This document shows positions 2,962 to 17,491 of a DNA stretch of 25,412 nt, piece after piece; position 1 is the stretch's first letter, and the number at the start of each line of letters is the position of its first letter. The notes below the pieces were generated by a model that saw only the letters and a program-made list of their open reading frames with translations, ran no database searches and was not told the origin of the DNA. The translations under genes and the position numbers were made by a program. This DNA comes from a virus. The stretch is from IMG/VR virus record IMGVR_UViG_3300022752_000358, positions 1 to 25,412 of that record. One strand, written 5' to 3'.

Positions 2962-3900
2962 ATGGCTCGTAATCCTTATTTTAAATTTCAATCAAGCGAA
3001 CAGAATGTTTCTGAAGATATCATTATTGAAATTATCAAAATGATGGGCCAGAATGTTTGGTACATTCCAAGAGAATTTGTAAATCTTGATAGACTTTTTG
3101 GGGAAGATCAGCTCAATAAATTTACAAAGGCATATCCAATTGAAATGTACCTTGCTTCTGTTACAGGTTATGATGGTACAGATGTAATTACAAAATTTGG
3201 TCTTGAAGTAAAAGATAGAGTCAATTTGGTAGTAAGTAAAAAAAGATTTACGAACGAAGTAACAACGCATAATTCCACTATCGTTCGTCCAAGAGAGGGT
3301 GATATAATTTATTTTCCCCTCTCAAAAACCATGTTTGAAGTTAACTTTGTAGAACATGAAACACCTTTTTATCAATTGGACAAACTATATGTTTATAGTT
3401 TGTTCTGCGAAACTTTCAACTATTCTGCCGAGGAATTCAATACTGGCAACAGCGAAATGGATACCGTGGAAGATGTCAAACAAAGTACATATGTGTTCTT
3501 GGCAAATCTTAATGCAGCCGGATTCCAAAATGCATATAAGAGTCTTACTTTGGGAGAAAAACTATATGTTACTGGCAGCGTAGCTGGAACAACGGCATAT
3601 TTCAGATTGCTAGATTCTACGCTCAATCAAGATAATCTTGAATTGGAGATAATGGCATTAGACGGAGTGACATTCGGCTATCCGACTGTAATAACTAGAG
3701 TAAATACTGGAGCAACATTCGGACTACTATCTACAGACAACACAGGAAATTATGGATTAATAAATCCGATTTTGGGAGATGCAGACGGAGAAAATCCTCC
3801 TCTTGATTATCAAAGAGGATTTACTGGTTCTGGAAGTAAATATGATATTCCCATAATTAATTTTAATGAAACTGATCCATTCTCAGAGGGTAATTACTGA
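2962..3900 (+). CDS. 14: Neck protein gp14
   Basis: This is the partner of gp13 in the neck that seals the DNA-filled head and joins it to the tail. The N-terminal half (residues 1-150) carries family features: MARNPYF, then NVWYIPREFVNLDRLFGED and the later FEVNFVEHETPFYQLDKLYVYSL. Length is 312 residues, about 55 longer than T4 gp14. The surplus is a beta-rich segment at about residues 175-265 containing TLGEKLYVTG, placed before a conserved-looking acidic end (NFNETDPFSEGNY). Cyanophage gp14 proteins carry a similar middle domain, as I recall. The start follows the gp13 stop by one base, and the TGA overlaps the gp15 ATG (TGATG), so translation of 13, 14 and 15 is likely coupled. Confidence 0.9.
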   Translation: MARNPYFKFQSSEQNVSEDIIIEIIKMMGQNVWYIPREFVNLDRLFGEDQLNKFTKAYPIEMYLASVTGYDGTDVITKFGLEVKDRVNLVVSKKRFTNEVTTHNSTIVRPREGDIIYFPLSKTMFEVNFVEHETPFYQLDKLYVYSLFCETFNYSAEEFNTGNSEMDTVEDVKQSTYVFLANLNAAGFQNAYKSLTLGEKLYVTGSVAGTTAYFRLLDSTLNQDNLELEIMALDGVTFGYPTVITRVNTGATFGLLSTDNTGNYGLINPILGDADGENPPLDYQRGFTGSGSKYDIPIINFNETDPFSEGNY

Positions 3901-5648
3901 TGTTTAATACATTCAACAACCAATCGATCAGAAAACTGGTAGTTGCCTTTGGTTCTTTATTTGATCAAATTTATGTAACAAGAAAAAATGATACTACTGG
4001 TGTTGAAGAAAATATAAAAGTACCAATTACTTTTGCATCAAAAGAAAAATTTCTAAGAAGATTAGAATCAAATTCTTCGATTACAGATAAAGTAAAAACT
4101 CAAATCAATTTACCTTATTTAAGTTTTGAAATGAACACGGTCGCATATGATCGTAATAGAAAAAGAAATAAATTAAGAGTAGCTACTGGAATTGATGAAT
4201 CTGGGCTTTCTTATAAATCATTTGCCGAAACACCAGTAGATATTGAATTTCGTGTTTACTTTTATTCAAGAAGTATGGAAGAAATTCTTCAAATGGCAGA
4301 ACAAATTTTGCCATATTTTAATCCAGAATTTAATATAAGAATTAATTTCAACGAATTATATAAAGATATAAATGTTCCGATTAATTATAGAGATTTTAGA
4401 ATTCTTGATGATTATGAAGGAGCTTTAACTAACAATAGAAGAATATTGATTGGTACTATGGTTTTTATTGCCAATAGTTATATCTTTGGAGAAATAAAAT
4501 CTGGAAATCCTCCAACATCAACTACTCTAAGAATTGCAGATCTTTTAACAGAAGATTATATTCCTCCGGTAACTTCATTGACCATAAGCTCAAGTCTGCC
4601 AGCTATGCAATATGATCATCCGTCTGATATAGTATTTTTGTTTCAAAATTTATCATGGACAGAAGAAAATGTACCAAATCAAACAACATCAATATTGGTA
4701 TTAAATCCAGATAAAGAAGTTATATATTCCGATTTCACAGAAGCTGGAAGACAGTCCCTAACAACATCTATGTACGATTTGCTATTAGAAGCAATCGCAG
4801 ATGATTTGAATGCTTGTGGCACAACTGTTAATGGTTCCTTTACCTATACTTTTTTGGTGCAAAATGGCCAATTGAGTGATTCAAAAACATTTACTTTCAG
4901 TAGTTTTGATGGTAGTGGTATTTGTGATCCTGTGAGAAGTATTTACATAAGTGAAGGATTACCTTTATTGAATTATGCATTACCAACCAATAATGCTCCT
5001 CTTAGAAATAATTTAACATGGATGGAAACAAATGTTCTTGGGGCAACAACTGCTGCTAAAATATTTGATTCAGATGATAATTTAATTTATTCTAAAGTCG
5101 TAAATGCTGGTATTAATGGATTGCTTATAAGTGATATAGAAGATATTGGTTCAGCAATAGCAAATGATCTAAGTACATGTGGTGCAGTTTATAACGATTT
5201 AAGTGCTTGGACATTCAAGGTCGAAAATGGAGCATTGACTGATAGTGTTTCTTTTATTGTAACTTATGTCGATGGCGTTGCAATTTGTCCAATAACATTA
5301 ACAGTCAATCCTGCATTGACTGGTAGTTACAAAATACCTGGATCTAATGCCTTGCTTCAATCCAGAATGACATGGAGCGCACCATCATACGCAAATCCAA
5401 ATACAACTATAGAAGTTTTGGATTCTGATTCAAATGTAATATACACAACAACGGTTGCAAACAGCGTAACTTCAGTTTCTAGTGGCCAATATATCGCAAT
5501 AGTCAGTGCAATTGTAACAGATTTAAATGCCTGCGGTATTACTGTTTCTGGAACATTCGTTTATACTTTAAGAATTACAAATGGTGCAAGTATCGGATCT
5601 AGAACATTTACAATAACACAAGTAGCAAATCAATTGTGTTTAGGTTAA
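3900..5648 (+). CDS. 15: Tail sheath stabiliser gp15 with three added repeat domains
   Basis: gp15 caps the head-proximal end of the contractile tail and joins it to the neck. Residues 1-215 match the family: MFNTFNNQSIRKLVVAFGSL, then VPITFASKEKFLRRLES and YLSFEMNTVAYDRNRKRN. T4 gp15 is about 272 residues; this protein has 582. The excess is three tandem repeats, at about 225-343, 345-463 and 465-580. Each has a W-containing strand (LSWTEEN, LTWMETN, MTWSAPS), a VIYS/LIYS/VIYT strand, a DLxxCG motif (C306, C427, C545), a T-x-x-V/I-x-NG strand and a closing Cys (C342, C463, C580) 35-36 residues later. They look like Ig-like or fibronectin-like beta domains with one possible disulfide each. 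The fusion is in frame with no stop, and the ATG overlaps the gp14 stop. Confidence 0.9.
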   Translation: MFNTFNNQSIRKLVVAFGSLFDQIYVTRKNDTTGVEENIKVPITFASKEKFLRRLESNSSITDKVKTQINLPYLSFEMNTVAYDRNRKRNKLRVATGIDESGLSYKSFAETPVDIEFRVYFYSRSMEEILQMAEQILPYFNPEFNIRINFNELYKDINVPINYRDFRILDDYEGALTNNRRILIGTMVFIANSYIFGEIKSGNPPTSTTLRIADLLTEDYIPPVTSLTISSSLPAMQYDHPSDIVFLFQNLSWTEENVPNQTTSILVLNPDKEVIYSDFTEAGRQSLTTSMYDLLLEAIADDLNACGTTVNGSFTYTFLVQNGQLSDSKTFTFSSFDGSGICDPVRSIYISEGLPLLNYALPTNNAPLRNNLTWMETNVLGATTAAKIFDSDDNLIYSKVVNAGINGLLISDIEDIGSAIANDLSTCGAVYNDLSAWTFKVENGALTDSVSFIVTYVDGVAICPITLTVNPALTGSYKIPGSNALLQSRMTWSAPSYANPNTTIEVLDSDSNVIYTTTVANSVTSVSSGQYIAIVSAIVTDLNACGITVSGTFVYTLRITNGASIGSRTFTITQVANQLCLG

Positions 5649-5651
5649 TTT

Positions 5652-6071
5652 ATGGAAAATCTTGATAAATTTTTTGATATTGAAGAAACAAAAAAATCTA
5701 AAGAAATTGTACTTGAGCAAACTCCAGACAAGGACTTTGAATTTGCCAAGCGCAATATGTACGATATTATTGAGAAATCAAAAATTGCTCTTGAGGGAAT
5801 CATGAAAGTTGCGACTGAAGGTGATTCACCAAGAGCATACGAAGTGGTAACTCAAATGCTGAAAACAATGTCTGAGATTAATAAAGATCTAATAGATCTT
5901 GAAAAGATAAAGAACGAAGCAAATAAGACCACTATAAAAACAACAAACAATAATTCATTCTTCATAGGCTCTACTAGTGATTTACAGGATCTAATCAACC
6001 CTGAAAGAAGCAAGAATAAAGCTATAGAAATGATTGATGCGAAGGTGGTAGAGGATGTCAAGGAAGTTTAA
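5652..6071 (+). CDS. 16: Terminase small subunit gp16
   Basis: gp16 forms the ring that recognises concatemeric phage DNA and regulates gp17 during headful packaging. The 139 residues (T4 has 164) follow the family plan: a short acidic N-terminus, a central helical pair with FAKRNMYDIIEKSKIALEGI and DSPRAYEVVTQMLKTMSEIN (T4 has a comparable DSPRHMEVFATLM stretch), and a C-terminal part with FFIGSTSDLQDLI that parallels T4 VFMGSPTELMDEI. The gene starts three bases after gp15 and overlaps gp17 by 17 bases, the usual tight pairing of terminase genes. A good ribosome site for gp17 (AAGGTGG, 6042-6048) lies inside its 3' end. Confidence 0.92.
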   Translation: MENLDKFFDIEETKKSKEIVLEQTPDKDFEFAKRNMYDIIEKSKIALEGIMKVATEGDSPRAYEVVTQMLKTMSEINKDLIDLEKIKNEANKTTIKTTNNNSFFIGSTSDLQDLINPERSKNKAIEMIDAKVVEDVKEV

Positions 6072-7695
6072 AGGTTACTTAGGTAATCCAAATCTAAAAG
6101 AAGCTGGAGTAAAGATTGACTTCACCGAAGAACAAATTCGGGAATATGTTCGTTGCTCCCAAGATCCCATTTATTTTATTAAGAAATATGTCAAGGTAGT
6201 CTCTCTTGATAAGGGCCTTGTTCCTTTTGATTTATACGATTATCAAGAGGATATGATCAAAAAGATGCATGACAATCGTTACATCATTGCCAAACTGCCT
6301 CGTCAGTCTGGTAAGAGCACAACGATTGTTGCATTCATTCTTCACTACATTCTTTTCAATCAGAGCATGAGCGTTGGTATTCTGGCCAACAAGATGAATA
6401 CGGCTAGAGAAATTCTTGGCCGTCTTCGTCTGGCCTATGAGTATCTTCCCAAGTGGCTTCAGCAAGGTATCATTGAATGGAACAAGACATCCATTCAGCT
6501 AGAGAATGGCTCAAAGGTCATGGCATCGGCCACATCCTCATCGGCAGTTCGTGGTGGATCATTCAACCTTATCTTCTTGGACGAATTTGCCCATGTCTCT
6601 CAAAACATAGCAGAAGAGTTCTTCAGTTCAGTTTACCCTACAATTACCTCCGGTCAAACCACGAAGGTATTCATGGTATCAACCCCAAACGGACTGAATA
6701 TGTTCTATTCCTTCTGGAAGGGGGCTACAAGGAAGCAGGGAGAGGAGGGCAAGAACGAGTACATACCCATAGAGGTGTCTTGGAGACAGGTTCCTAAGTA
6801 CGCTGGTGGGCCTCTGCGCGACGAGCAATGGAAGCAGCAGATGATTGCCCAGACCAGCGAACAGCAGTTTGAGCAGGAGTTTGAATGTTCATTCCTTGGT
6901 TCTTCAAATACCCTCATCAGTGCTAGCAAGCTAAATTTGCTTCAGTTCGATAAACCAATAGCAAAGGAGCCAGGAGGTCTTTACATCTACGACGAACCAG
7001 TTGAAGGCCATGCCTACTTCATCATGGTCGATGTCGCCAGAGGTCAGGGAAGAGACTATACGGCTATGGTTGTGGTTGATTCTACTGAAAAGCCTCATAA
7101 GGTCGTGGCAAGATATAGAAATAATCTTATATCTCCCTTTGATGTTCCGCCGGAACTTTACAATCTGGCAATAAAATATAATAATGCACACTTACTGATT
7201 GAAGTCAACGACATCGGCGGTCAGATTGCCGATGCCATGCATGAAGATTATGAGTATGAAAATATTATTCAGACTCAGATGATGGGTCGTGCAGGACAAA
7301 AAGTAACCTTGGGTTTCGGTCGCGGAACAAAACAAAGAGGCGTAAGAACCAGCTCTGCGGTCAAAAAACTGGGTTGTGCAGTTCTAAAAAATTTAATTGA
7401 GCAAGATAGGCTCTTGGTCAGAGATTTTGATATTATTCAAGAATTGATGACTTTTGTTTCAAAACATCAGACACATTGTGCAGATGATGGTTATACAGAC
7501 GATTTGGTTATGTGTCTTGTTCTTTTTGGATGGCTAACCCGCCAAGGCTACTTTGAGGAGATCATTGACCTACAACGGAAAAAAATCATACATAAAGCTG
7601 AAGAAGACGAGGAGAATACGACATTTTTTATGGGTCCAGAAATGCCAGAAAATGCCATTCGTGAGGATAATGCGCTTTGGTTCACCGAGGAATAA
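6055..7695 (+). CDS. 17: Terminase large subunit gp17 (ATPase and nuclease)
   Basis: This is the packaging motor and headful nuclease that docks on the portal and pumps DNA into the prohead. ATPase domain: Walker A LPRQSGKST at 81-89 with K87, Walker B LIFLDEFAHV at 172-181 with D176 and E177, and coupling motif VSTPNG at 208-213. Nuclease domain: the RNase H-like acidic triad fits D326 (MVDVARGQGRDY), E383 (LLIEVND) and D482 or D483 (DDGYTDDLVM), matching T4 D401, E458 and D542. Length is 546 against 610 in T4, with a shorter N-terminus. All key residues are present. It overlaps gp16 and is followed after three bases by the sheath gene. Confidence 0.97.
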   Translation: MSRKFKGYLGNPNLKEAGVKIDFTEEQIREYVRCSQDPIYFIKKYVKVVSLDKGLVPFDLYDYQEDMIKKMHDNRYIIAKLPRQSGKSTTIVAFILHYILFNQSMSVGILANKMNTAREILGRLRLAYEYLPKWLQQGIIEWNKTSIQLENGSKVMASATSSSAVRGGSFNLIFLDEFAHVSQNIAEEFFSSVYPTITSGQTTKVFMVSTPNGLNMFYSFWKGATRKQGEEGKNEYIPIEVSWRQVPKYAGGPLRDEQWKQQMIAQTSEQQFEQEFECSFLGSSNTLISASKLNLLQFDKPIAKEPGGLYIYDEPVEGHAYFIMVDVARGQGRDYTAMVVVDSTEKPHKVVARYRNNLISPFDVPPELYNLAIKYNNAHLLIEVNDIGGQIADAMHEDYEYENIIQTQMMGRAGQKVTLGFGRGTKQRGVRTSSAVKKLGCAVLKNLIEQDRLLVRDFDIIQELMTFVSKHQTHCADDGYTDDLVMCLVLFGWLTRQGYFEEIIDLQRKKIIHKAEEDEENTTFFMGPEMPENAIREDNALWFTEE

Positions 7696-7698
7696 TAC

Positions 7699-8868
7699 AT
7701 GCCACAGATTAATATAAACGAAAACGCAACAAATATCACAATTGCCGCAGCCGAACAAGCTTCTGCTCACATTTCTGCCTTTATGTGTGGTGCTTCATTC
7801 TACAATAAATTAGTAGAAGGAGATAATCCAGTCCCATCATATAAAATTTATAACAATTCTCAAGAATTACTTGCAGAATTTGATTCATCTGTTTTGGCCG
7901 GAACTTCTTCTGGCTTTGCCGGATCTGGAAGAGGATTTACTGGTGGAGTAACTACTGATAGAGAATTACATGCAGCATTAAATTATCTTGAATACGGTGG
8001 AATCCTTATAGCCGCAACTGGGGCAACGCAGCTCAATAGAAACGATTTAAATATTGATTCTGTTTTCTGTGAAAACAATACAAAATTCGGGGATGTAATT
8101 AATTTAATAACCCTAAGACAAGATTGTGTTGGTATTATAGGTTCTTCTTATGAGTATTATTCTGGATCTGCTGGATCTTATCCATCTGATTTCTCAGCAT
8201 TGGCCTTCAATACACTTCCGGGAATCAATGGTGTGACTCTTTATGAAGATCTTTTCTATTCAGTAGTTGGTAGAAAATCTAGAAATAGAATTTATGGCGG
8301 CGAAACTGCCCCCATAAACATTCTAATGACATCTGATGCTGCTGGTTGTTTTGCCAGAACTGATTCGGTTTCTTATCCTTGGTTTGCTCCAGCAGGAATC
8401 AATAGAGGAAAAGTAAATAGTATTATTGCTCTCACCCCAACACTAAATGATACCGATGTTACGAATTTAATAGACAACCAAAATATAAATTCATTCAATA
8501 GTCTTTTCGGTTCTGAGGGGATCTATCTCTTGGGCGATAAAACAGCAGAAACCACAGATGTCAATAAGAAACAAGTTGGCATCTCTCGCTTGATTACCTA
8601 CATTAAGAGATCATTTAGACCATTACTTGATTCCGTATTGTTTGAAATCAATGATTCTGAAACTAGAGCAAGATTTGTTACTGGAGCAACTGCGATAATG
8701 GAATTCATTAAATCCGGTAGAGGAATTTCTTCATATTCCGTAGTTTGCGACGAATCAAACAATAATGCTGCTGTGGTTGGAGCAAGACAATTCGTAGTAG
8801 ATTTGTCTTTCAAGCCCAACTTCTCAGTAAATAGCATCACATTCAGATTTACAGTTAATCAATCGTAA
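7699..8868 (+). CDS. 18: Tail sheath protein gp18 (copy A)
   Basis: This is a subunit of the contractile sheath around the tail tube. At 389 residues it is much shorter than T4 gp18 (659), but has the conserved C-terminal sheath core: SYPWFAPAG at 225-233, INRGKV, ISRLITYIKRSFRPLLDSVL, then VCDESNN at 349-355 and the closing beta strands FVVDLSFKP and ITFRFT that in the sheath family swap between subunits. The N-terminal 110 residues hold the extended arm and a Gly-rich loop (SGFAGSGRGFTGG). A GAGGA ribosome site lies nine bases before the ATG inside gp17. The stop overlaps the ATG of a second sheath-like gene (TAATG). By codon use and ribosome site it is probably the more strongly expressed copy. 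Confidence 0.9.
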   Translation: MPQININENATNITIAAAEQASAHISAFMCGASFYNKLVEGDNPVPSYKIYNNSQELLAEFDSSVLAGTSSGFAGSGRGFTGGVTTDRELHAALNYLEYGGILIAATGATQLNRNDLNIDSVFCENNTKFGDVINLITLRQDCVGIIGSSYEYYSGSAGSYPSDFSALAFNTLPGINGVTLYEDLFYSVVGRKSRNRIYGGETAPINILMTSDAAGCFARTDSVSYPWFAPAGINRGKVNSIIALTPTLNDTDVTNLIDNQNINSFNSLFGSEGIYLLGDKTAETTDVNKKQVGISRLITYIKRSFRPLLDSVLFEINDSETRARFVTGATAIMEFIKSGRGISSYSVVCDESNNNAAVVGARQFVVDLSFKPNFSVNSITFRFTVNQS

Positions 8869-10178
8869 TGTCAGTAGTTTTTCAGCTTAAAACTATAGAA
8901 GCAAAAAAGGACATAGATGTTGCTTTGCTCATCTATGAATATAATGACTTTTTTTCTTTTTTAAGAATAACTGAAAAATATAAAAAAATAACTGATATAA
9001 ATGCATTTACAGATTTAGTAAAAAATGGAGATTTTTCTGCTTTTGGATTTGCCAATTTTGAAGATTTAATTCTTAAATTAAATATAACTGGTGGAGAAGG
9101 TCTTGCTTCTAGAAAATTTGATATTTATATTAATTTTATTATAGATGCTCTTCATTACAATTATAATCTTATTCTTGTGAATATGAGCGGACCACCAAGT
9201 ACCAAATTAATAAATTTAAAGGCATCTCTTAATGAGAATTCTGTAAAATTTATAATTTACGATCCCTTACTTGAAAGTACAACACCATCTCATATTAATG
9301 TTTTTATAGAAACAAAAATTCCTGTAATTTTTAATTCTACAGTAAATTATCCAAATTCTACATCTACTCCAGTTTTTTTGGAAAGAGAATATATCTCTAA
9401 TAAAAATATAAGATTTACTTTTCTATTTAATGATTGTAATAGAATTTCTGGGTTGCAAACAGTAAGTGAAGATTTTAAACCATTTGTATTTTGTTCTACT
9501 GGAGTAAAATTAATTCAAAGATATTATAGCCGCGATGATGTAGATGGCGAATTTGGAGCTTTATATTATGTTCCCATTTCTTTAGTTTCAGATGCCGCAG
9601 GAGCAATGTCTAGATCCTTTACTCAATATCCCTGGTATTCCCCAGCTGGTTTTGAAAGAGGAAAAATACTAAATCAAAATTTTATTACTGCTGAGAATGC
9701 GTCATCTCCAGAGGGAATTGTTCCGCTAACGCCTTCTGATTTGTCTGGCTCCTCTACCAGTGCATTGGGTATTGCGTATTCAAGAGGACTAAATACATTT
9801 CTCAATGTACCAAATCAAGCAAATGTTAATGAATATTTCTTATTAAGCGATTTTTGCGGCATAACTCAAAGCGCAACGCCAATAAAAACATCTATATCTT
9901 ATGGCAATTTAATTTCATATATTAGCTTTGGCGTAAAAACTATTCTAAATTTAGCTTTATTTGAAATAAACGACGAGGGACTTAGAAATAGTACAAAATT
10001 TAGGATTGAAAGTTTCTTGCAGCCAATAGTAGCAAATCAAGGCATTGACGAGTATAGAATAGTTTGCGACGGATCTAATAATAGCCAAACTGATGTTTTA
10101 AATAGAAAACTGAATGTGGATGTGTATATTAAGCCCTCACAAAGTATAAATTTTGTCGAATTGAGCTTTACTACATAA
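8868..10178 (+). CDS. Second tail sheath-like protein (copy B)
   Basis: This is a 436-residue paralogue of the gene just upstream. The C-terminal half aligns with sheath landmarks: QYPWYSPAG at 253-261, FERGKIL, GNLISYISFGVKTI, LFEINDEGLR (copy A has LFEINDSETR), VCDGSNN at 399-405, and VDVYIKPSQSINFVELSF, which matches the family C-terminus better than copy A does. The first 230 residues share little with copy A. Base composition is extreme: positions 8941-9000 contain 8 G/C in 60. It overlaps copy A by one base and has no ribosome site, so it is probably translated by coupling at a lower level. It could be a minor sheath subunit at a tail end, a decorated ring, or a diverging duplicate. No frameshift or stop suggests decay. 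Confidence 0.82.
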   Translation: MSVVFQLKTIEAKKDIDVALLIYEYNDFFSFLRITEKYKKITDINAFTDLVKNGDFSAFGFANFEDLILKLNITGGEGLASRKFDIYINFIIDALHYNYNLILVNMSGPPSTKLINLKASLNENSVKFIIYDPLLESTTPSHINVFIETKIPVIFNSTVNYPNSTSTPVFLEREYISNKNIRFTFLFNDCNRISGLQTVSEDFKPFVFCSTGVKLIQRYYSRDDVDGEFGALYYVPISLVSDAAGAMSRSFTQYPWYSPAGFERGKILNQNFITAENASSPEGIVPLTPSDLSGSSTSALGIAYSRGLNTFLNVPNQANVNEYFLLSDFCGITQSATPIKTSISYGNLISYISFGVKTILNLALFEINDEGLRNSTKFRIESFLQPIVANQGIDEYRIVCDGSNNSQTDVLNRKLNVDVYIKPSQSINFVELSFTT

Positions 10179-10181
10179 TAT

Positions 10182-10700
10182 ATGGCAACAACTTTATCGC
10201 AGTTTATCTCAAATTTTAAAGGCGGAACTAGACGCAATCGCTTTTTGATTACTGGGACATGGCCAGCAGGATCAGTAAACGCGACAACGACTTTTCATAT
10301 CTTAACCGCAAATTTACCCGCATCAAACCTTGGAATGGTAACAATTCCTTGGAGAGGGAGAGAAATTAATTTTGCTGGTGATAGGCAATATGATCCTTGG
10401 GAAATAATCGTATTGGATGATACTGGAGCAAATGTAAATTTGTGGAAGTCTTTTCATCAATGGCAAAAATCGATAAACGATCATAAAAATAATACTCATA
10501 CTGCTTCAAACGACTCTTTCAATACTTTGAAAAAGGATTGGAGAGTGCAGCATTTAAATTTAAATGGTAGTGTAATTAAAACTATGTTACTAAAGGGGTG
10601 TTGGCCTGCTCTAGTTGCTCCAGTTCAATTCAATATGAAAGAAAACACATTTAACACCTTTGCTGTTAGAATGAATTACGATTTCTATACTGGAGTCTAA
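10182..10700 (+). CDS. 19: Tail tube protein gp19 (copy A)
   Basis: This is a subunit of the inner tail tube through which DNA passes. At 172 residues it is close to T4 gp19 (163). Family features are FKGGTRRNRFLITG at about 12-25, PWRGREINFAGDRQYDPWEI in the middle, NLWKSFHQWQKSINDHKNN, and the C-terminal LKGCWPALVAPVQFNM followed by paired beta strands (FNTFAVRMNYDFY). It sits directly after the sheath genes as in T4. The start is preceded by CTACATAATATATG with no Shine-Dalgarno sequence. Another tube gene follows after one base and shares the GGTR(R/K)NRF and GCWP-x4-P-x3-NM signatures. Confidence 0.93.
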   Translation: MATTLSQFISNFKGGTRRNRFLITGTWPAGSVNATTTFHILTANLPASNLGMVTIPWRGREINFAGDRQYDPWEIIVLDDTGANVNLWKSFHQWQKSINDHKNNTHTASNDSFNTLKKDWRVQHLNLNGSVIKTMLLKGCWPALVAPVQFNMKENTFNTFAVRMNYDFYTGV

Positions 10701-10701
10701 A

Positions 10702-11241
10702 ATGGCACAATCAATAAATGATTTTAAAAATAGTTTCTTTGGTGGCACTAGAAAAAATCGATTTAGGCTTTCCGGTAGATTTCCAAACGGAGAATGGAAT
10801 GATTTTTTGGTCAGTGCTGCCAGCTTGCCTCAAGCAGCCACATTAACAAATGTTTTTGATCATAGAGGTAGAAAACTTTTAGTTCCTGGAGATCGTATCT
10901 ACGGTTCTCAACCCGGCGGAACAAACTGGAATGTTGTTGTTTTGGATGATAATGAGCAAAATTCAAATCCTCTTTGGTCCAAGCTACATGCTTGGAGCAG
11001 TTCTATAAACAATCACGAATTAAACACAGGAACCCAAATAAATCCTGTAAGTTATAAACGAGATGGTTGGATAGTAGAACAATTAGATCTGGATTGCTCT
11101 ACTGTATTAAAAAGTATTACATTATCTGGTTGCTGGCCATTTATGATTGGACCAATCGACCTAAATATGTCGTTGAACGATGAGTATGTGACTTTTAATG
11201 CTACATTTGCGTTTGATTATTATGAAGTGAATGGTATTTAA
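10702..11241 (+). CDS. Second tail tube protein (copy B)
   Basis: This is a 179-residue paralogue of the preceding tube gene. Shared elements in the same order are FKNSFFGGTRKNRF at the N-terminus, ASLPQAATL, HRGRKLLVPGDRIYG, WNVVVLDDNEQN, LWSKLHAWSSSINNHELN, and SGCWPFMIGPIDLNM near the end, closing with FNATFAFDYYEV. All core tube positions are kept, so it should fold and could form tube rings alone or mixed with copy A. A GGAG ribosome site lies seven bases before the ATG in the end of copy A. Which copy is the main tube protein cannot be told from sequence. Alternatives are a tube initiator or terminator ring, or a special ring matched to the second sheath copy. Confidence 0.88.
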   Translation: MAQSINDFKNSFFGGTRKNRFRLSGRFPNGEWNDFLVSAASLPQAATLTNVFDHRGRKLLVPGDRIYGSQPGGTNWNVVVLDDNEQNSNPLWSKLHAWSSSINNHELNTGTQINPVSYKRDGWIVEQLDLDCSTVLKSITLSGCWPFMIGPIDLNMSLNDEYVTFNATFAFDYYEVNGI

Positions 11242-11255
11242 AATTGGAGAAATAA

Positions 11256-12800
11256 ATGGCCTTTAATCTATTTGGTTTTCAGATAAGTAAAAAAAATAAG
11301 GAAGACATTCTTCCATTACAAAACTTTACTACACCTGAAGAATTTGATGGTGCTTATGTAACTGAAGGAGCAGGAGTCTACGGAACATTCGTTGACTTCA
11401 TGGGTTCTCAGAAGAACGACAATGCTTTAATTGCTCAGTATAGAGCAATGGCACTTTTTCCAGAGTGTGATACTGCGATTGACGAAATTACTAATGAATC
11501 AATAGTAATGGGATTTGATAGAAAGCCAATAAAGCTTGATTTATCAAAGATTGATTTTTCTGATAATATCAAAAGTAAAATATATTACGAATTTGATAAT
11601 ATTTTAAAATTATTAGATTTTCATGATAAAGGGTATGAAATTTTTAGAAGATGGTATATCGATTCTAAATTATTTTATTATATTACCATCAATACAAATA
11701 GCCCCGGTGAAGGAATTAAACAATTAATTCCTCTTGATGCTACCAAGATAAAGAAAGTTAGAAAACTAAAGACAAAGAACGCAAAACAAGATGGGGCTAG
11801 TCTATCCCTAATTCAAGATATTGAGGAATATTATCTTTATACAAACACAGATAAAAACTCAGTTATTGCTACGCCAACATCTGGCCTGAAGATATCACCA
11901 GATTCAATTTGCTTCGTGCATTCTGGAATGGTGGATATGAACACCAAGAGAGTCATTGGTTACCTCCACAAGGCCATTAGACCTCTAAACATGCTTAGAC
12001 AGATCGAAGATGCCATTGTCGTATATCGCATCTCTCGCGCCCCAGAGCGTCGTATCTTCTATATCGATGTCGGCAATCTACCAAAGCAAAAGGCCGAACA
12101 ATATGTCCGTGAGCTTATGAACAAGTATCGTAATAAGCTCATTTACAACCAGACTACGGGTGAAATAAAGGACGATAGAAATCAGATGGCCATGATTGAA
12201 GATTACTGGCTACCTCGCCGCGAAGGTGGTAGAGGAACTGAAATTTCTACCCTAGACGGGGGACAGAATCTCGGTGAATTGACCGATGTTGAATATTTCA
12301 AGAAAAAGCTCTACTACGCTTTGAATATTCCTCCATCAAGACTTGTAGGGGAAAACGGATTCAATCTTGGAAGATCGGCTGATATCACGCGAGATGAGGT
12401 CAAGTTCTATAAATTTATTGAAAGATTGCGTTATAAGTTCTCAACTATGTTCCTTCAGCTTATAAGAATTCAATTGATTTTGAAGGGCATAATAACAGAA
12501 GAGGACTGGGATGTTATTAGTCCTCATATAAACTTCTCTTTCACCCGTGATTCATATTTTAACGATATGAAAGATGCTGAAATTCTATCTGCAAGAATGG
12601 AATTAGCTGCTGCTATGGAACCCATGATCGGTAAATATTATTCTTCTGCCTATATCAGAAAGAATATTTTGAAGCAAACTGAAGAAGAAATCAATCAAAT
12701 TGACGCAGAAATGCAGATTGATATTGCAAAACAAAGACAGGCCGAAATGGAACAAATGCAAATGCAACAGGCTATGGGCGAACAACCAGAACAAGCATAA
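11256..12800 (+). CDS. 20: Portal vertex protein gp20
   Basis: This is the dodecameric portal at one head vertex: it nucleates prohead assembly, is the docking site of gp17 and is the DNA channel. The 514 residues (T4 has 524) show family features: LFPECDTAIDEITNESIV near 70-90, a wing region with REGGRGTEISTLDGGQNLGE, then FKKKLYYALNIPPSRLVG and the SFTRDSYFNDMKDAEIL segment. The C-terminal 45 residues are helical and rich in Gln, Met and Glu. A GGAG ribosome site (11246-11249) precedes the ATG at good spacing. It opens the head-gene block right after the tail tube genes, the standard T4 order. Confidence 0.96.
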   Translation: MAFNLFGFQISKKNKEDILPLQNFTTPEEFDGAYVTEGAGVYGTFVDFMGSQKNDNALIAQYRAMALFPECDTAIDEITNESIVMGFDRKPIKLDLSKIDFSDNIKSKIYYEFDNILKLLDFHDKGYEIFRRWYIDSKLFYYITINTNSPGEGIKQLIPLDATKIKKVRKLKTKNAKQDGASLSLIQDIEEYYLYTNTDKNSVIATPTSGLKISPDSICFVHSGMVDMNTKRVIGYLHKAIRPLNMLRQIEDAIVVYRISRAPERRIFYIDVGNLPKQKAEQYVRELMNKYRNKLIYNQTTGEIKDDRNQMAMIEDYWLPRREGGRGTEISTLDGGQNLGELTDVEYFKKKLYYALNIPPSRLVGENGFNLGRSADITRDEVKFYKFIERLRYKFSTMFLQLIRIQLILKGIITEEDWDVISPHINFSFTRDSYFNDMKDAEILSARMELAAAMEPMIGKYYSSAYIRKNILKQTEEEINQIDAEMQIDIAKQRQAEMEQMQMQQAMGEQPEQA

Positions 12801-15501: not shown

Positions 15502-16911
15502 ATGAATTTTGACGATACAACCCCATACGATATTTTAACTGAGAAGTGGGAACCAGTCCTCGGACACAATGCTCTTCCCTCTATCGAAGATACTTACAAG
15601 AAGAAGGTAACTGCTGTTCTACTTGAGAACCAAGAGCAAGCTCTTCGTTCACAGAGACTAACCGAAGACAACACCCTCGGTGGAGTCATCAGCAATGTTT
15701 CTAGCCCAGCTTCAACCTCAATCGCTGGTTACGATCCAATCCTAATCAGCCTCGTTCGTCGCGCAATGCCAAACCTCATTGCTTACGACATCTGCGGCGT
15801 TCAGCCCATGACCGCTCCAACCGGACTCATCTTCGCAATGCGTCCCAAGTACGATCCAGCCCAAGCAGTACACCGTAAGGAAGCAATGTTCCAGGAACCA
15901 TTCGTACCCTTCGGTGGCTCTGGTGGCTTTACTGGTTCTTACGGCATCAGCGGCAATTATCCTGCCTACGATGAGACTTATGGTCTAACCCTATTCGCTG
16001 GTACTACTGGTGCAACTAGAATCGCTGCTAATCTTGCTGGAGATAACTTCAAGGGCATGTTAGTAGGTGAAGCCGAAAATCTCGGTGGTAGCGGAAAGTC
16101 TTTCGCTGAAATGGCCTTCACTATCGATAAGGTTGCTGTTCAGGCTAAGACTCGCGCTCTAAAGGCCGATTACACCACTGAACTTGCTCAGGACCTCAAG
16201 GCTGTTCACGGACTTGATGCTGAAACCGAACTCGCCAACATTCTCAGCACTGAAATTCTTGCTGAAATCAACCGCGAAGTCGTTCGTTCAATCTACAATG
16301 TCGCCAAACTAGGCTGCAAGCAAACTGACCTAAGCTCAAACGGATTTGGTGGTGGTGTTTATGACCTCCTAACCGACTCAGACGGTCGTTGGTCAGCTGA
16401 ACGCTTCCGTGGCCTCATGTTCCAGATCGAACGCGAAGCAAACCAGATCGCCAAGGAAACTCGTCGCGGTAAGGGTAACTTCATCGTCTGCTCGTCAGAT
16501 GTTGCTTCAGCCCTCGCAATGGGTGGTTGGCTAAACATCAGCCCAGCTCTAAACAACCAGCTTGAAATTGATGACACTGGCAATACCTTTGCTGGCGTAC
16601 TCAACGGCAAGATGCGCGTTTATATCGATCCTTATGTCCAGTCTGGTGTAGATTTCGTTTGCGTCGGCTATCGTGGTGCAAGCCCATACGACGCTGGCCT
16701 CTTCTACTGCCCCTATGTCCCGCTCCAGATGGTCCGTGCAGTCGATCCTGACACCTTCCAGCCCAAGATCGGCTTCAAGACCCGCTACGGCATGGTTGCT
16801 AATCCGTTCGTTCTCAACAACGGAACTCCAGACGGCGAAACTTTAACCGCCAATATCAACCAGTACTACCGCATCTTCCGTGTTACCAACCTCCACGGCA
16901 ACACCAACTGA
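15502..16911 (+). CDS. 23: Major capsid protein gp23
   Basis: This is the hexamer-forming shell protein of the head (HK97 fold). It has 469 residues against 521 in T4. The family core is clear: RRAMPNLIAYDICGVQPM followed by APTGLIFAMRPKY near 85-115, then AEMAFTIDKVAVQAKTRALK, YTTELAQDLKAVHGLDAETE, and the closing GFKTRYGMVANPF. The N-terminal propeptide probably ends at LTE/D (53-56), where the usual Ala or Gly after the cut is Asp. Codon use differs from most neighbours: positions 16741-16800 contain 35 G/C in 60 and C-ending codons dominate, as expected for the most abundant protein. It has a strong ribosome site (AGGAG), a perfect late box, and a strong terminator right after it. No gp24 vertex paralogue is seen in the window. 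Confidence 0.98.
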   Translation: MNFDDTTPYDILTEKWEPVLGHNALPSIEDTYKKKVTAVLLENQEQALRSQRLTEDNTLGGVISNVSSPASTSIAGYDPILISLVRRAMPNLIAYDICGVQPMTAPTGLIFAMRPKYDPAQAVHRKEAMFQEPFVPFGGSGGFTGSYGISGNYPAYDETYGLTLFAGTTGATRIAANLAGDNFKGMLVGEAENLGGSGKSFAEMAFTIDKVAVQAKTRALKADYTTELAQDLKAVHGLDAETELANILSTEILAEINREVVRSIYNVAKLGCKQTDLSSNGFGGGVYDLLTDSDGRWSAERFRGLMFQIEREANQIAKETRRGKGNFIVCSSDVASALAMGGWLNISPALNNQLEIDDTGNTFAGVLNGKMRVYIDPYVQSGVDFVCVGYRGASPYDAGLFYCPYVPLQMVRAVDPDTFQPKIGFKTRYGMVANPFVLNNGTPDGETLTANINQYYRIFRVTNLHGNTN

Positions 16912-16981: not shown

Positions 16982-17491
16982 ATGCCTGGTAATAATATTT
17001 CCAATCTTGGTCAGAATTTCTTTCATTTTGAATTGGCAAGAATTCCAAATATTATTTACAATGTTCAAGAAGTGGCTTTACCAAATCTTACTATGGCCGA
17101 TCAAGATCAGCCAACAACTCTTGGTATCCCCATAAAAAGACCAATAGGCGCATATAAATTCGACAATCTTCAAATTTCTTTTTTGGTTGATGAGAATATG
17201 AATAATTGGTTAGAAATTTATAAATGGATGCGTCATTTGGGAAATATTGATAGTGATTGTACAAATAACTCATTACCATTTTCTAGATGGATGACAACTG
17301 CTACTCTTCACATCACAAAAGGAACATATAAAGATAACTTGAAGGTTATATTTCAAGAAATTTTTCCTATAGCTCTTTCTGGCCTTAGATTTACATCTAC
17401 AGCTGCTTCTTATCAGCCGCAAATAGCGACTGCAACTTTTTCCTATACTTATTACAGATTTGAACCAGATCCAGGCAATATAACTAGTTGA
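16982..17491 (+). CDS. Tail-tube-like virion protein
   Basis: This is a 169-residue beta-rich protein with the layout of the phage tail-tube fold. It has FFHFELARIPNIIYNVQEVA near the N-terminus, ALPNLTMADQDQPT, KFDNLQISFLVDENMNNWLE then IYKWMRHLG in the middle, and a C-terminal FPIALSGLRFTST with paired strands (ATATFSYTYYRF). The VDEN-x2-NWLEIYKW segment is typical of tube-like structural proteins in T4-type phages. It is more distant from the two tube genes at 10182-11241 than they are from each other. In cyanophages the gene between gp23 and uvsY is usually called tail completion gp3, so gp3 is an alternative. It has no ribosome site and lies just past a strong terminator, preceded by CTACATAGTATATG. 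Confidence 0.65.
   Translation: MPGNNISNLGQNFFHFELARIPNIIYNVQEVALPNLTMADQDQPTTLGIPIKRPIGAYKFDNLQISFLVDENMNNWLEIYKWMRHLGNIDSDCTNNSLPFSRWMTTATLHITKGTYKDNLKVIFQEIFPIALSGLRFTSTAASYQPQIATATFSYTYYRFEPDPGNITS

Follow-up and report, generated by a model that had tools for sequence, protein, structure and literature searches.

One of the closest described counterparts of the locus analyzed here is the gp18/gp19 tail module of phage T4, where a single sheath gene (gp18) and a single tube gene (gp19) occupy the slot between the terminase and portal genes (order 13-14-15-16-17-18-19-20). The same families are found in the same order in a 25.4-kb viral record from an uncultured T4-type virus of bacteria (IMG/VR record IMGVR_UViG_3300022752_000358, 25,412 nucleotides; hereafter the window). 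However, gp18 and gp19 are each doubled in the window, whose late genes are arranged as 13-14-15-16-17-[18A-18B-19A-19B]-20-21-22-23-3-uvsY-uvsW. Each window sheath matches gp18 and each tube gp19, although the sheaths comprise 389 and 436 amino acids compared with 659 in T4.

Several known systems share part of this arrangement. Like the window, Pseudomonas phage PaBG carries two sheath genes in one genome as the result of duplication, and the excerpts of PMC7412058 used here report that the pair is 38% identical and that both proteins occur in the virion proteome. However, PaBG belongs to the jumbo phages and is not of the T4 type, and a doubled tube is not described in those excerpts. Other phages with two sheath copies include Myohalovirus (PMC9230969). 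Architecture 1 of the Bacteroidales injection systems (BIS) has two sheaths and two tubes per cluster, and a sister architecture has a single sheath, which mirrors the relatives of the window (PMC7394362). However, BIS are bacterial injection systems without a head and belong to a different sequence family. Phage SPP1 assembles one tube from two kinds of subunit, gp17.1 and gp17.1*, a likeness that on the side of the window is known from its genes. Unlike the window tubes, the SPP1 isoforms are produced by a frameshift in one gene for a non-contractile tail, and the longer isoform is dispensable (PMC7666168). The sheath paralogues Afp2/3/4 and the tube paralogues Afp1/5/7 of the Afp/PVC systems are present in one particle (PMC12961389). 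Unlike the product expected from the window, these particles are headless, and their extra tubes and sheaths are encoded in another gene order. The extra Afp/PVC paralogues sit at particular positions in the particle. We rejected the possibility that the window locus is itself an extracellular contractile injection system (Afp, PVC, or BIS), since the window includes terminase, portal, protease, scaffold, and major capsid genes.

A tblastn search of 50,697 phage records revealed no record with two places matching either window tube, and we found no doubled gp19 in T4-like phages, with or without a doubled gp18, in the open-access literature. From the sequences at hand, doubled gp19 looks confined to uncultured phages. 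Doubled phage sheath genes and two-sheath/two-tube injection systems were already known, whereas a doubled gp19 in a T4-like phage appears to be new.

The duplicated tail cassette

The cassette spans positions 7699-11241 and consists of two gp18-like sheath genes followed by two gp19-like tube genes, all located on the + strand between terminase and portal. All four open reading frames (ORFs) are intact. The cassette and its borders include the following features.

6055..7695, + strand: gp17, terminase large subunit, the upstream border of the tail cassette (PF03237, 1.7e-29)
7682..7698, + strand: Shine-Dalgarno (SD)-like GAGGAA preceding sheath A (SD-like motif in 22/22 clade members)
7699..8868, + strand: sheath A, gp18 paralogue, 389 amino acids (phrog_23, 3.9e-36; PF17482, 3.7e-9)
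8866..8870, + strand: stop/start overlap (TAATG) between sheath A and sheath B in 11/11 genomes displayed; no SD before sheath B (SD-like motif in 0/25 clade members)
8868..10178, + strand: sheath B, gp18 paralogue, 436 amino acids (phrog_23, 1.3e-17)
10182..10700, + strand: tube A, gp19 paralogue, 172 amino acids (phrog_45, 6.3e-30; solved T4 gp19 structure in the PDB, 3.6e-10)
10702..11241, + strand: tube B, gp19 paralogue, 179 amino acids (phrog_45, 1.2e-26; BLASTP to tube A, 4.6e-35)
11256..12800, + strand: gp20, portal, the downstream border of the tail cassette (PF07230, 1.6e-173)

BLASTP aligns sheath A with sheath B at 30% identity over 216 amino acids (E=2.5e-21) and tube A with tube B at 37% identity over 179 amino acids (E=4.6e-35), and so neither resemblance is due to chance. 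The sheaths share the signatures YPWFAPAG/YPWYSPAG (sheath A/sheath B) and VCDESNN/VCDGSNN, as well as LFEIND in identical form. Likewise, the tubes share GGTRRNRF/GGTRKNRF (tube A/tube B), and GCWP-x4-P-x3-NM is present in both. An earlier, sequence-only reading of this stretch had listed these signatures and had described the four genes as intact, side-by-side duplicates of genes that are single in T4. The ORFs, the phrog_23 and phrog_45 matches, and the BLASTP comparisons bear out this description, and every quoted signature is present.

Two gp18-like sheaths with different N-terminal regions

The homology between sheath A and sheath B that is detectable by BLASTP is restricted to their C-terminal halves, and sheath B has diverged strongly in its N-terminal third. 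Family profiles were built from mixed alignments, each led by the copy named. The sheath A profile aligns to T4 gp18 residues 5-656 (E 2.5e-75), whereas the sheath B profile aligns only over residues 338-656 (E 9.5e-72). Sheath A follows the full gp18 plan, minus the large protruding inserts, and appears to retain the N-terminal linker. Sheath B combines a canonical C-terminal half with a diverged N-terminal domain and a shortened linker. The C-terminal subtilisin-like and handshake domains of gp18-type sheaths are present in both copies, as indicated by phrog_23, profile alignments to T4 gp18, and Foldseek matches to 9mkb.

The AlphaFold2 model of sheath A has a predicted local distance difference test score (pLDDT) of 83, is disordered over residues 1-21, and has T4 gp18 as its best Foldseek match (2.8e-17). 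The model of sheath B (pLDDT 88.4, predicted template modeling score 0.89) is ordered from its start, and its top Foldseek matches are sheaths. Fold and profile searches also retrieved the Pvc2/3/4 and Afp2/3/4 sheaths. In sheath B, ~16-17 residues precede the first core strand (11/11 proteins displayed) compared with ~25 in sheath A, making the sheath B linker ~10 residues shorter. The N-terminal linker of other sheaths is part of the mesh and serves as a hinge on contraction (PMC11948020). The disorder of the first 21 residues in the sheath A model fits a linker that becomes ordered only in the lattice, and the shorter linker of sheath B suggests that its role may differ from that of sheath A.

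Both tubes belong to the gp19 family

Tube A and tube B each align with T4 gp19 over its full length, and both match phrog_45. The T4 and P-SSM4 genomes each carry three phrog_45 matches in total, located at the positions of gp19, gp3, and gp54, the third of which we take to be gp54 from its place in the genome and from what is known of T4. The window has its own gp3 gene between gp23 and uvsY, as does P-SSM4.

16982..17491, + strand: gp3, tail-tube terminator, a third tube-fold gene outside the duplication (phrog_45, 8.1e-29; best matches annotated as gp3/tail tube terminator)

In a 78-kb contig that is closely similar to the window over the tail region (IMGVR 3300032322_001069, called G001), phrog_45 matches four genes: both tubes, gp3, and a gp54-like gene of 182 amino acids located between gp4-like and baseplate hub genes. 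This contig also encodes a gp48 tube cap (phrog_230, 3.2e-14). In the tree, tubes A and B group with gp19 and apart from gp3. With four phrog_45 genes plus gp48 in G001, neither tube replaces the terminator, the initiator, or the cap. Judged by these relationships, it is gp19 itself that is doubled.

Sheath and tube numbers in related viruses

A survey of IMG/VR portal relatives yielded 47 distinct complete terminase-to-portal intervals. All 22 intervals of the window clade (portal 77-100% identical) have two short sheaths of ~390 and ~430 amino acids. Two tubes are present in 14 of these intervals and three in seven, and tube A is broken in one (L014). This broken gene (L014:3834-4252) has an out-of-frame internal deletion of ~130 bases, which represents either a loss or an assembly error. 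The sister clade (portal 54-57%) is represented by 15 intervals, all with two tubes and 14 with one sheath. The exception, L035, has a second sheath-like gene of 662 amino acids that was detected by profile, giving a 2+2 architecture. Its tandem sheath-like genes (L035:4778-8833; 662 and 660 amino acids) have no PHROG match and were detected by profile only. In a more sensitive sheath-profile search, nine sister-clade contigs each proved to have a single sheath and the L035 contig two, where the one-sheath count covers contig fragments of 18.7-91 kb rather than whole genomes. No match to the sister-clade sheath was found by tblastn in cultured phages. The outgroup consists of 10 intervals, each with one sheath and one tube.

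An unrelated lineage (L101, L104, L111, L133, L152, and others in L098-L174) carries two tandem full-length sheaths of ~570-730 amino acids each in 13/13 contigs. These sheaths are 30-35% identical to sheath A. A single phrog_4542 tube accompanies them in 12 of the contigs, and the thirteenth shows the two sheaths only. In the nearest isolate to this lineage, Flavobacterium phage immuto, sheath and tube are each present as a single gene.

The sequence-only reading had regarded the duplication as paired, meaning that second sheath and second tube should co-occur in relatives. The survey speaks against this view and turned up what that reading itself had named as a refutation, namely second copies without their partner. 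Two tubes accompany one sheath in 14 distinct sister-clade loci, two sheaths accompany three tubes in seven window-clade loci, and second copies that lack their partner also include the two sheaths with one tube of the L101-type lineage (12/13 contigs).

Duplication history

In the tube tree, the first tubes of the window and sister clades form one clade (support 96/91), the later tubes form another (91/73), and single tubes fall outside. Topologies that keep the tubes of each clade together fit worse in approximately unbiased (AU) tests (p 0.08 and 0.04). A single old gp19 duplication that predates the split of the two clades is favored by these trees. The third tubes are re-duplications of tube B and are 63-74% identical to one another.

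Three groups make up the sheath tree, namely a clade of sheath A, a clade of sheath B, and the sheath of the sister clade, with no firm branching order among them. Treating the single sister-clade sheath as an orthologue of sheath A or of sheath B gives AU p values of 0.22 and 0.40, which are compatible with doubling of the sheath before the two clades split and a later loss in the sister clade. The two L035 sheaths are mutual nearest kin, and thus the doubling there is independent. The sequence relationships indicate that sheaths doubled separately at least three times: in the window clade, in L035, and in the L101-type lineage. The tube duplication also appears to be older than the clade that carries the double short sheath. 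The 1+2, 2+3, and 2+1 architectures, together with the trees, indicate that sheath and tube duplications are uncoupled.

Expression signals and selection

Within the window clade, an SD-like motif precedes sheath A in 22/22 cases and sheath B in 0/25. Sheath B, whose start lies within the stop codon of sheath A and lacks an SD, is predicted to be made by translational coupling to sheath A.

Ratios of nonsynonymous to synonymous substitution rates (dN/dS) between the window and L001 are 0.055 for sheath A, 0.163 for sheath B, 0.067 for tube A, and 0.239 for tube B, although dS is near saturation and the values are rough. All four genes are predicted from these ratios to be under purifying selection. 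Sheath B evolves faster than sheath A, with mean distances of 1.08 versus 0.53 for the N-terminal domain and 0.72 versus 0.56 for the C-terminal domain. The N-terminal domain of sheath B (window 8907-9400) is also a local peak of divergence from G001, with 76-86% DNA identity compared with 98-100% in the flanks. Distance correlations used to look for co-evolution of A with A and B with B left residual correlations that are all high (0.74-0.88), and the copies are not paired.

Codon usage was tried as a proxy for protein abundance and was set aside, as only the capsid protein stands out. The use of NNC codons is higher in sheath A than in sheath B in 12/13 genomes, which is consistent with a greater abundance of sheath A but is a weak signal. 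In the major capsid gene (15502-16911), the proportion of C-ending codons is 0.68 versus 0.09-0.37 in the other late genes measured, and the same pattern is found in the relatives checked.

Models for the tail

This virus probably assembles its tail from more than one type of subunit. With moderate confidence, we favor a two-component tail in which sheath A forms the bulk lattice, sheath B is a specialized component, and the two tubes have no fixed sheath pairing. We infer from the genes that both copies are present in the virion, and likewise the position of each. The earlier proposal of a tail made of two sheath/tube pairs survives in part: each layer has two intact, long-maintained paralogues, but their matched pairing is unsupported.

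According to the favored two-component model, an ancestor would have doubled gp19, probably in one event, after which both tubes would have become non-redundant. Later, the shortened gp18 would have been doubled too in the clade of the window. The bulk meshwork would consist of sheath A as the ordinary contractile subunit. Through its coupling to sheath A, sheath B would presumably be made in a smaller or fixed amount as a specialized component. It might be placed in particular rings, such as at the neck or baseplate end, in the manner of the extra Afp/PVC sheath and tube proteins, or be mixed into the lattice with its variable N-terminal domain exposed. Tubes A and B would form one channel under either sheath, without pairing of one sheath with one tube.

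Some observations weigh against this model. Sheath B has a complete C-terminal assembly domain and may polymerize along the whole tail. The two tubes evolve at equal rates, and neither stands out as the major or the minor copy. NNC codon use in the sheath genes is no higher than in terminase, which makes the abundance proxy weak. Furthermore, separate tube duplications are just marginally rejected (AU p 0.08, 0.04).

More tentatively, we propose that the tube is heteromeric, with A and B alternating in hexameric rings or forming distinct rings. Such a tube would have been kept since before the clade split and would work beneath a single sheath in the sister clade and beneath a two-component sheath in the window clade.

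Another possible, though doubtful, arrangement is a uniform copolymer, in which every sheath ring and every tube ring would contain both kinds of subunit, such as three of each in a hexamer, from one end of the tail to the other. The PaBG sheath has been described as having two components, both of them found in the virion (PMC7412058), and in SPP1 two tube isoforms occur together at 3:1 in a single tube (PMC7666168). In addition, the tight translational coupling of sheath A and sheath B is a usual means of holding stoichiometry. However, close relatives have either two or three tubes (L004/L012, portal tree distance ~0.03-0.05), which is hard to explain with a fixed heterohexamer. Moreover, sheath B is without part of the mesh-forming N-terminal linker, and the rates of sheath A and sheath B are unequal.

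It is improbable that the second copies are decaying, redundant remnants. The shorter linker and fast evolution of sheath B are in keeping with decay, as is the out-of-frame deletion in L014 tube A, if this is not an assembly error. However, all 22 distinct loci of the window clade keep sheath B intact, its dN/dS is far below 1, and both tubes have been kept since before the split of the two clades.

We rejected, as very improbable, the idea that the extra tube is a gp3 terminator or a gp54/gp48 baseplate initiator that moved beside gp19. Although both gp3 and gp54 have the tube fold and belong to the PHROG of the tubes, gp3 in the window and gp54-like and gp48 in G001 are all separate genes, and both tubes group with gp19. 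Finally, two alternative tails, with A-type and B-type virions that would each have a separate sheath and tube and serve different hosts or conditions, were the third option of the sequence-only reading and would suit the adjacency of the two copies of each gene, but they are scarcely credible given one cluster with overlapping genes, no switch seen, single gp15, gp3, gp54-like, and gp48 genes in the available contigs, and relatives that hold two tubes with one sheath.

Additional features of the window and its relatives

Upstream of the cassette, the window encodes an unusually long gp15 protein.

3900..5648, + strand: gp15, sheath terminator/stabilizer with a long extra C-terminal part (PF16724, 2.4e-47, residues 5-201 of 582)

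The protein extends ~380 residues past the gp15 domain. Among the tabulated loci with a complete gp15, a similar length is found only in the window, L001/L002, and L028 contigs, and most others have ~225-360 amino acids. The DNA at 4407-5150 is 66-77% identical to G001, versus 88-97% in the flanks. The C-terminal extension is probably an exposed, fast-changing decoration of the neck.

The terminase large subunit is in two pieces in L066 (L066:1435-4094) and L075, with ~590 bases between the pieces in L066, perhaps an intron or intein. A sheath relative (26%) is present on a contig of a Flavobacteriales metagenome-assembled genome (L201:2736-3242), which provides only a weak hint of the host.

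Implications for contractile tails

The sheath and tube of contractile tails are usually treated as homopolymers that are locked together. The sheath:tube gene numbers of 1:1, 1:2, 2:2, and 2:3, together with 2:1 in the L101-type lineage, indicate that the two layers can gain components independently. With the relatives of the window, the question of why a tail would need two tubes can be put to a defined group of genomes. If the tube is indeed heteromeric, these viruses would offer a natural test of how tube and sheath symmetry can come apart.

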